From NCBI RefSeq assembly GCF_002872335.1, contig NZ_NJAG01000013.1, forward strand, positions 89,341-153,340: DNA of 64,000 nucleotides, given 5' to 3'. The first letter of the stretch is position 1; each line of letters opens with the position of its first letter. The position numbers and the translations under genes were made by a program. Source of the stretch: Siphonobacter sp. BAB-5405. Its GTDB lineage: Bacteria; Bacteroidota; Bacteroidia; Cytophagales; Spirosomataceae. Under the pieces are notes generated by a model. The model was not told the DNA's origin and searched no databases. It worked only from the letters and a program-made list of their open reading frames with translations. This document shows positions 8,981-38,722 of this stretch, piece by piece.

Positions 8981-10536
8981 GTGAGCAATGAATTAGTTAT
9001 CAATTCGACTCCCAAAGGTGATAGAATCGCTCTTTTGCAGGACAAAAGAATCGTTGAATATCACTTTGAAGAGTCAGAAGAGCACTTCTCTGTGGGCGAT
9101 ATCTACCTGGGAACGGTCAAAAAACTGGTCACCGGGCTCAATGCCGCTTTCATAGATATTGGGTACGAGAAAGATGCCTTTCTTCATTACCTGGACCTGG
9201 GGCATAACATCAATTCACTCAACAAGTACACGAAAGATGTAATTGCCAAACGGGTGAGTGATGGCATGCTGAATGGGTTCGAGATGGAGCCTGAAATAGA
9301 CAAGCATGGAAAGATTGACAAAGTCTTAACCAAAAATGCCCCTATTTTAGTCCAGGTCGTAAAGGAGCCTATTTCAACCAAAGGCCCCCGACTTTCCTGC
9401 GACATTTCCATTGCAGGCCGTTTTCTGGTACTGGTTCCTTTTGGACATTCGATTAATATTTCCAAAAAGATCACCAGCAAGCAGGAACGTCAACGCCTTC
9501 ATCGGCTTGTACAGGGCATTAAGCCGCCCAACTTTGGAGTAATCATCCGTACAGTCGCTGAAGGAAAAGAATCGGAGGAAATTGAACTCGACCTGCGAAG
9601 CCTGCTGGCCAAGTGGGATGCGGGGATGAAAGCCCTCCGGGACGCCAAGCCCCGTGATAAAATCATCGGTGAGATGAGCCGGGCTACGTCCATTATGCGG
9701 GACATGCTGAATGATAACTTCGACAGCATTACGCTCGACCATAAGGAAATGTACGAAGAGGTTCGATCGTATGTTACCCAGATTGCTCCCGAGAAGCAGA
9801 ATATTGTTAAATTCCATCAAGGGAAAAACAAGGTATTCGAACATTTCGGCATTGAAAAGCAGCTCAAAATGCTTTTCGGACGTTCGGTAAGTTTACCGGG
9901 CGGTGGCTATCTGATCATTGAACATACGGAAGCCTTACACGTCATTGACGTAAACTCTGGTAATAAATCCAATCAGGAAGAAAGCCAGGAAGATACGGCG
10001 GTCAATGTAAACATTGAAGCAGCCAAAGAAATTGCCCGTCAGTTGCGGCTTCGGGATATGGGTGGAATCATTGTCATCGATTTTATTGACATGAAAAAGC
10101 CCGAGAATAAGAAGCAGATTTATGACGTGATGCGGGAGGAAATGAAGCTCGATCGTTCGAAATTCACCATTCTGCCCCTCACTAAATTTGGTCTTATGCA
10201 GATTACCCGGCAACGGGTACGGCCCGAACTCAACATTCAGACTCAGGAAGTTTGTCCACCTGCGGTGGAACGGGAAAGATTACGGCGAGTATTGCAGTCT
10301 CAGACATTGTTGAACAAAATCTGGATTACATACTCAGTAAGCAGAATGAAAAAGGATTACGGATCATGCTCCACCCCTACCTTTATTCATACTTTATGAG
10401 CGGTTTTCCGTCTCGCCGAATGAAGTGGTGGCTGAAGTACCGAATCTGGGTAAACCTGGTACAGGACAGCTCACTAGGTGTTACCGAATTCCATTTTTAC
10501 AATAAGTCCGGCGAGCCGATTGAGGTACACGGATAA
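8981..10536 (+). pseudogene. rng: Ribonuclease G, interrupted by a one-base frameshift
   Basis: RNase E/G-family endonuclease for rRNA and mRNA processing. GTG start at 8981 (MSNELVINSTPKGDRIALL). An S1-like domain lies at about residues 35-130 (VGDIYLGTVKKLVTGLNAAF) and the catalytic DNase I-like region includes VIDVNSGNKSNQEESQ and IIVIDFIDMKK. At 10253-10259 the frame breaks inside the zinc-link motif: frame 1 reads TQEVCPPAVERERLRR, while the -1 frame continues with TCGGTGKITASIAVSD to the stop at 10536. One extra C in the CC run would restore CPTCGGTG and a 518-aa protein of normal length. As written, the protein loses the zinc link and the small C-terminal domain (stop near 10399). It could be a sequencing error or a real mutation. 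Confidence 0.88.
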
Positions 10537-20893: not shown

Positions 20894-21243
20894 AAAGAAG
20901 GTTTAGATAGGGAGGAGTTCAATCAGAGGGCTAAAGATGAACGAGATTTTTAGTTTAACAACGAATAGATTAGTTAAAATGTGTTAAACGGAAAATATCG
21001 TTGCTTAATGGCATTTGTTGGAAAGATGAGAAAAGTAAAGGCAAGGTTGCATTCCATTGTATGAATTTATGTTAAATCTATCTTCTTCAGATAAAATATA
21101 ATATTCCTCTTTATAGACATGATTAGAAAATGGACATTACTCTAGCTCCTACTTATTGCTTTCAGGAAAAATTAGAATTTAAAGATTGTTTTTAGGGAAG
21201 GCTGTTTTTATTTTGTCGCGATTCAACTTTATCCAACGCTACT
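20894..21243. other. A/T-rich divergent intergenic region
   Basis: 350 nt between two divergent outer-membrane protein genes, clearly more A/T-rich than the coding DNA around it. It must hold promoters for both. Apart from one weak promoter-like pair at 21186-21215, I saw no repeat, hairpin or small ORF worth calling. Confidence 0.5.
21186..21215 (+). promoter_or_regulatory. Weak promoter-like pair
   Basis: TTG at 21186-21188 and TATTTTG at 21209-21215, 20 nt apart and about 30 nt before the start codon, approach the Bacteroidetes consensus. Confidence 0.3.
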
Positions 21244-21876: not shown

Positions 21877-23786
21877 TTATCGCAAATACAAATTCCCCAA
21901 CGCATCATACGCCATTACTTCTTCACTCACTAATTCCCGAACAAGTAACAGAAAAGCGTTTTCATTCTTCGGAGCTAAACGAGCCACTAATTGCTGAATG
22001 GTAATGGGTCCACTCGCTAATGCATCTACGATTCGTTGCTTTTCCTGCGTCATCGAGCCCGCCGTTTGACGGGCTTTTTTTCGAGCCACGCAGGTATCAC
22101 AAATCCCGCACTCGTAATCGGTAGACTCGTCAAAATATTCGAGTAATAGCTGCGTTCGGCAACGGGTCGTGTTGCCCACGTATGCAATCATGGCCTGTAC
22201 TTTGCTCAAGTCGCGGTCGCGGCGGGCCGCAATGGCCCGTACCGAAAGCGGCAGGCCAGCGGCATCGTACCGGGCCGTAATGAAGGTTAGCTGCGGTTTG
22301 GTTTTTTGCGGATCGTATTCAATCACATTCAGTTCTTCGAGCCGATACAACAGCGTCCGTACTTCGGCTTCTGGTACCAGAAAAGCTTTAGCGATGGCGG
22401 ATTCCGAAATAATCAGGTATTCCGTAAATAAGGCTCCGCCGTACATCCGTAACAGCAGTTTCGTGAAGCCATCAAAGCGTTCGTTGCGTACCTGAAATTC
22501 GTATAATTCGCGGCTATTGACCGTAAAATGCAGTTTGGACGGATTGTGATACGATTCACTCATCTGAATGAATCCCTCACTTTCCAGAATTTTCAGGGCG
22601 TAGTAGGTATCGGTCGTAGCCAGTCCGAACGTCGATTGAAAGTCATTCAGATCAAAATCGTAACTACTCCCCTCACCCGCTCCAATGGCCAGCCGGAAAT
22701 AATTCGCCAGACATTGGTAAACCCGGCGGACAAAATCCAGTTCGGGATACTGCTGCTCTACCTGTTTAACCAACTCTTTTCCATCCCCCGGAGCTACCAG
22801 AGCTACGGCGTAGGCTTTTTCCCCATCCCGACCGCCGCGTCCGGCCTCCTGAAAATAGGCTTCGAGGGTATCCGGCAAATCCAGGTGAATGACCGTCCGC
22901 ACGTCGGGTTTATCGATCCCCATCCCAAAGGCATTCGTCGCCACCATCACCCGTATACGCCCCTTAAGCCAGGCTTCCTGCCGCATGGCTCGGTCCGAGG
23001 CACTTAAGCCCGCGTGATAAAACGTCGCCGGAATACCCCGGCGGCTGAGTTCGTTGGCAATGGCCTGCGTACGGCGGCGGCTCCGGGCGTACACCACGGA
23101 GGTACCGGGGACATTGGTAAGGATTTTCTGTAAGCGTACTTCCTTATCTTCCGTCGTAATAATCGAATAGGAAAGATTAGGCCGGGCAAAGCTTTGCTGA
23201 AAATCCGCTCGTTCCGCATGGCCAGTTTTTGCACGATGTCGGCTTTGACTTCTCGTGTAGCCGTGGCCGTCAGAGCCAGCAAGGGCAGCTTGGGGAAAAG
23301 CTCCCGGAACTCAGCGATTTGCAGGTACGGTGGTCGGAAATCGTAACCCCAGGCCGATACGCAGTGGGCTTCATCCACTGCAATCAGGTTGATTTTCATT
23401 TGCTTGGCCCGTACCCGAAACAGCTCGGTTCGCAAACGCTCGGGTGATACGTACAGAAATTTCACATCACCGTAAATACAGGCATCCAGCGTATGATCAA
23501 TCTGTCGGTAGCTCATGCCCGAGTACACGGCTTCGGCGTGAATACCGCGTTTTCGCAGGTTTTCCACCTGATCCTTCATCAGGGCAATCAAAGGCGAAAT
23601 GACGAGGCACAAGCCCGGCTGAGCCAGGGCCGGCACCTGAAAGCAGACGGATTTTCCTCCTCCCGTGGGCAGCAGGGCCAGTACATCATGCCCGGCCAGT
23701 ACTGATTCAATAATTTCCCGTTGCATGGGTCGAAAAGCATCGTACCCCCATACCTGCTTTAATAGTTCGTCAATCGTCATGGTCAA
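21877..23786 (-). pseudogene. recQ: ATP-dependent DNA helicase RecQ, interrupted by a one-base frameshift
   Basis: About 636 codons if read through. The N-terminal part (start 23786) has Walker A TGGGKS with Lys45, SPLIALMKDQV, DEAH at 138-141 and the aromatic loop WGYDFRPPY. After ERIF (about residue 196) the frame is lost at about 23195-23204; the other frame continues with QSFARPNLSY, then VVYARSRRRTQAIANELSRR, motif VI (EAGRGGRDG), the zinc-binding Cys set (CRTQLLLEYF...YECGICDTC) and a winged helix. One extra T in the TTTT run (AAAA at 23200-23203 on the plus strand) restores RIFQQSFARPNLSY. As written, the product has no motif IV-VI and would be inactive. Sequencing error or real mutation cannot be told apart here. 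Confidence 0.88.
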
Positions 23787-26585: not shown

Positions 26586-26600
26586 AAACGAACGCTTACG

Positions 26601-30591: not shown

Positions 30592-31079
30592 GGATTTGAG
30601 GTTTCTAGGTAGGGTTGAAGGTTGAGATTGGTTTAAGGGTTGAAACCTGTAAGATTAGGTTTTAGTGCGTTGGCCGTAGTATTTGCTGCGGATGTTGAAC
30701 GTTGGTAAGCTGTGTCTACCGGGCATACCCCGCATTGCATACGGGGCTAAACACATGGAACCCCTCCGGGGTTGGGGTTTTGATTAAAGAGGTACAACTG
30801 GTGCAAGTTTCCAAACTTATACCCACCATTAAGCAGTTTCCAACTGCCCGGTTTTGCAATCCGAAAGCGATTTGTAAAGCTCCCATGCCTTGCCAATGCA
30901 CAACCGTTAAGTTCCAGATTACAAACCTGGAACAGCGAAGAGCCTACCAGACGATCTGAGCCCTACCGATTAAGTAGCATTATGGATAGTCCCCTTAGAT
31001 TAACACCCTCTAGTCAGGAAATACTAATTGATCTATTTTCAGCATTGAAAACTGAAAACTGCCCATTAAAAACAATGCA
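30592..31079. other. Intergenic region with repeat copy A and repeat remnants
   Basis: 488 nt without a gene. It starts with simple repeats, then holds the repeat at 30669-30773. Downstream is a hairpin of GTTCCAG / CTGGAAC (around 30910-30935) and a TGAAAACTGAAAACTG tract just before the phosphatase. Short ORFs here are shadows of the repeat. Confidence 0.6.
30669..30773 (-). repeat. Four-palindrome intergenic repeat, copy A
   Basis: Reverse-orientation copy of a roughly 105-118 bp noncoding element also present at 33456 and 33688. In order (element strand): AACCCC/GGGGTT palindrome, CCCCGTATGCAATGCGGGG palindrome, GGTAG/TTACC-type palindrome and a CCGTAGCAAATGCTACGG-type palindrome (here CGCAGCAAATACTACGG). 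Confidence 0.8.
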
Positions 31080-38614: not shown

Positions 38615-38722
38615 GAGTAATTTGTCTTTTCTTAGGTACCCTTTTGCCAGCGTAGCTAGATTGCTGCAAGGTAAAAGGTTTCTCAACTTTTGAAGCGATT
38701 GCCGTTTATTTCCATTGCCCGT

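Follow-up and report, generated by a model that had tools for sequence, protein, structure and literature searches.

The rng locus

The window, a stretch of 64,000 nucleotides from contig C8 of the draft genome of Siphonobacter sp. BAB-5405, carries at 8981-10536 on the forward strand a gene of the RNase E/G family, rng, whose reading frame is lost directly after the first cysteine of the Zn-link motif. As given, the ORF opens with GTG at 8981, stops at 10399 and encodes 472 amino acids, against the 518 expected. It agrees with the expected protein through codon 425, the last residues being TQEVC, and beyond the break the conserved RNase G sequence TCGGTGKITASI... resumes in another frame and continues to a stop of its own (Table 1). 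An ORF that starts with TTG is present at 10252-10536.

Table 1. Parts of the rng gene, in window coordinates
Feature	Position	Strand	Basis
5' part of rng: 425 in-frame codons for the catalytic part (large domain), ending with the first Zn-link Cys	8981..10255	+	PF10150, TIGR00757, alignment with E. coli RNase E
Frame break, one base shorter than the closest congener	10255..10258	+	Alignment with G001; codons of 29 relatives
Out-of-frame tail of the ORF as given, stop at 10399	10256..10399	+	Tail without match in the relatives' proteins
C-terminal 92 codons of rng and stop; second half of the Zn-link motif and small-domain region	10258..10536	+	91 of 92 residues identical to G001; single occurrence in the assembly

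The rng product was assigned to the RNase E/G family by a domain match (PF10150, RNase_E_G domain; E value 3.1e-101, 338.8 bits against a cut-off of 25.5), by a family model (TIGR00757; 433.6 bits against a cut-off of 325.95) and by its catalytic aspartates. In an alignment with E. coli RNase E, the query residues D323 and D367 align with D303 and D346 (counted on the alignment), and C425, the last residue in frame, lies opposite C404, the first Zn-link cysteine. The roles of D303 and D346 (the catalytic aspartates) and of C404 and C407 in the E. coli enzyme are those given in PMC9841416. In the sequence as given, no single frame spans the whole CPxCxGxG Zn-link and the small domain. This motif sits between the large domain (1-400) and the small domain (415-510), and its mutation or deletion causes the loss of tetramers and of much of the activity, according to PMC2631609. 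A protein ending as the sequence is given would be without the second Zn-link cysteine and without the small domain.

The assignment extends to the family and no further. The E. coli-type ribonuclease G equivalog model NF008689 scored 305.7 bits on the rng product, under its cut-off of 594 bits, and the intact protein of the closest congener, at 322.6 bits, likewise fell under that cut-off; the rng product is therefore a member of the RNase E/G family and not the E. coli-type ribonuclease G equivalog. The catalytic part, both aspartates and the first Zn-link cysteine are common to the rng of the window and to the G-type enzymes of the Bacteroidota, and the congener's intact protein has CPTCGGTG, whereas the frame break inside the Zn-link motif is limited to this assembly. 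Weak matches of the C-terminal part to a thiamine kinase model and to an aminopeptidase chain were judged to be due to chance.

The missing base and the codons downstream

The closest congener, referred to here as G001, has an rng locus (L002) that is 95.4% identical to the window in DNA sequence over 2 kb. Compared with G001, the window lacks one base of a two-base run where the Pro and Thr codons meet. That two-base run is present in four of five congeners, and the fifth uses another Pro codon. A first-pass annotation of this DNA had described a single-base frame break in rng inside the Zn-link motif, and the comparison bears out both its place and its direction, one base short. The full length of 518 amino acids that the annotation expected is confirmed by the relatives, since the loci L002-L009 encode uninterrupted rng proteins of exactly that length. 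The CC run that it named as short, however, is not the run that differs from G001; the neighbouring two-base run differs.

To either side of the break, differences from G001 are mostly synonymous. The last 92 codons of rng carry 14 synonymous differences and 1 nonsynonymous difference, and the first 425 codons carry 52 and 4, respectively. These counts suggest that the part of the gene downstream of the break shows no sign of decay, although a mutation too young to have left traces would look identical. The first-pass annotation had held that its reading would fail if reads bore out the given sequence and the downstream part evolved without constraint; on the second point, and with the same reservation about a very young mutation, the 92 codons appear to be under constraint. 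The sole downstream replacement is an Ile; in a simple pattern comparison, 17 of 29 relatives have Thr at that site and none has Ile.

Copies and relatives of rng

The assembly (G000) comprises 6,487,815 bases in 246 contigs and is 99.99% complete. No second rng was found in it by searches with both halves of the gene, which answers the question, raised by the first-pass annotation, of whether another intact copy exists. Among the 39 genomes searched, that of the window included, an open rng frame of 512-559 amino acids was present in all 38 others, compared with 475 in this assembly. DNA was compared for 29 of these 38 relatives: CxxCxGTG is read in frame in all 29 and CPxC in 28, the exception having CMTC in its Zn-link.

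A scan of named genomes, which are partly the same genomes as those in the other set, yielded 23 rng loci, and those nearest to the rng of the window belong to Siphonobacter. Eighteen were recognized as in frame by pattern, one of them (L052) without its 5' part. The remaining five were missed by the pattern and are in frame by alignment; three of these have GSG in place of GTG.

Frame breaks elsewhere in the assembly

Frame breaks were counted in two samples of this one assembly, each compared with one congener, G001. The first sample was contig C8, of which 184,192 of 257,231 bases could be aligned with the G001 counterpart; C8 was picked for holding the rng break, and its count takes in rng itself. 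The second sample was the first 200 kb of contig C1. The count covered ORFs of at least 150 amino acids whose orthologues reached at least 75% identity at a coverage of 85% or more, and a break was scored when it cost at least 7% of the protein.

On C8, the orthologues of 6 of 135 G001 proteins are frame-broken in this assembly, namely rng, recQ, accC, tilS, a SusC/TonB-receptor-like gene and a glyoxalase-like gene. The reverse comparison on C8 flagged 3 of 137 proteins. None of the three flags is a genuine break in G001, because those for rng and recQ mirror the breaks counted here and the remaining one reflects an FMN-reductase gene extended upstream, in which the domain begins at residue 84 and the sole ATG in the first 110 codons lies at residue 83, past the difference. 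At the start of C1, 2 of 124 genes are broken here (an AcrB-like gene and an outer-membrane barrel gene), compared with 0 of 124 in reverse. The two samples together give 8 of 259 against 0 of 261 (Fisher p = 0.0036), or 8 of 259 against 1 of 261 when the extension is counted as a break (p = 0.02). Taken alone, C8 gives 6 of 135 against 0 of 137 (p = 0.014), and C1 gives 2 of 124 against 0 of 124, which is not significant (p = 0.50). At the DNA level, C8 differs from G001 by 17 frame-changing indel clusters in or at ORFs.

In seven of the eight breaks, a run of 2-5 bases is one base shorter than in G001, and four of these seven runs, that of rng among them, are just two bases long; about half of the bases of C8 sit in runs of at least two. 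In the eighth, that of the glyoxalase-like gene, no run is shortened; the change there is +2. In the recQ-like helicase gene, at 23204 of the window (C8:112544) on the minus strand, an A run is one base short relative to G001, probably through the same kind of error. Outside the window, the frame changes in the accC, tilS, SusC/TonB-receptor-like and glyoxalase-like genes lie at positions 30901, 57942, 77061 and 82643 of C8, and those in the outer-membrane barrel gene and the AcrB-like gene, each a one-base run shortening relative to G001, at 21111 and 154397 of C1.

No other full copy of tilS or accC was found in the assembly. The search returned tilS in two pieces only; accC was returned in two pieces, the other matches being a domain, 47% identical, within a longer protein on another contig and two weak hits to a third contig. 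The combined loss of tilS (lysidine synthetase) and accC (acetyl-CoA carboxylase) would be hard to survive.

Interpretation of the break

As judged from these sequence comparisons, the break in rng is very probably an error of sequencing or assembly, and the RNase G of the organism intact. An error is favoured because slips of this kind also disrupt other housekeeping genes in the draft: tilS and accC are broken alike, which a living cell could scarcely tolerate, so that an indel-prone draft is the economical reading. The breaks have the marks of indel errors in that they are in excess over a close relative, are unshared by relatives, and fall also in genes expected to be essential. Most likely, then, the frame break is present in the sequence and absent from the organism. 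This Siphonobacter-like member of the Bacteroidota would possess a single RNase G-type endoribonuclease, ordinary and intact, of about 518 amino acids, and in the window a very short run of identical bases would have been called one too low. The first-pass annotation had considered the loss severe if real; the point is probably moot, given that similar breaks in housekeeping genes of C8 suggest an error of base calling or assembly.

Several observations weigh against an error. The pattern resembles the run-length (homopolymer) indel errors of draft genomes in that one-base shortenings of short runs occur in several genes, with none genuine in reverse, but it departs from them in the shortness of the runs. 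Of the seven runs, four have only two bases, that of rng among them, and miscalls are rarer in two-base runs than in long ones. In addition, the C1 sample is not significant alone, a +2 change accounts for one of the eight breaks, and the downstream Ile occupies a site at which none of the 29 relatives has it. Among the literature matches listed on Siphonobacter genomes or on run-length errors of drafts, the portions available contained nothing on the read technology of this assembly. With 8 of 259 orthologous genes broken by indels in two regions, apparent truncations in this draft are not safe to take as biology without reads.

A real and very recent one-base deletion, which would have cut RNase G within the Zn-link and left a large domain without a small domain, is improbable. 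It matches the sequence as given, and the unusual downstream Ile is in its favour. RNase G is also non-essential in E. coli, which has RNase E as well (PMC9841416); a real loss might for that reason be survivable, although the presence of RNase E in E. coli tempers the comparison. Against a deletion stand the several other genes of the assembly that are broken alike, tilS and accC included, the lack of decay downstream, and the long frame kept by all 38 of the other genomes. We correspondingly think it quite unlikely that the strain lives with its only RNase G cut inside the Zn-link, the catalytic large domain kept and the small domain gone. A break that did exist in the organism would amount to a natural example of an RNase E/G enzyme lacking the part that forms the tetramer, and it would offer a natural test of whether the family needs the tetramer in the Bacteroidota.

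Still less probable is a mutator (mismatch-repair-deficient) isolate or a decaying genome, in which many one-base run shortenings would be true. The prevalence of run shortenings among the breaks fits such a genome, but mutators hit mostly long runs, whereas four of the seven runs here are only two bases long, and genes expected to be essential are affected.

Programmed -1 frameshifting, in which one base read twice would yield the conserved protein, and independent translation of the C-terminal part beginning at the TTG at 10252, for which an ORF exists, have a negligible probability: the 38 relatives encode a single long frame that needs no shift, and the slippery site that the first-pass annotation thought worth looking for did not materialize, since the two X XXY YYZ heptamers in 10150-10400 are out of frame with the upstream gene and lie away from the break. 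Programmed frameshifting was rejected on these grounds, and independent translation because the relatives encode one frame.

Further differences from the congener

Other differences from G001 were seen that do not enter the set of eight. At 38652 of the window (C8:127992), on the minus strand, a one-base difference lies upstream of the only nearby ATG of the FMN-reductase-like gene, and because of this position it is probably in the leader and breaks no gene. A cluster of one-base differences at 26596 (C8:115936), at the edge of a 476-amino-acid ORF, is probably intergenic. Two further sites on C8 were dropped from the protein-level count by its thresholds, and both are probable further errors: C8:79099, near the start of a mannose-1-phosphate guanylyltransferase-like gene, where the run is longer here, and C8:189080, near the end of a sugar-transferase gene.
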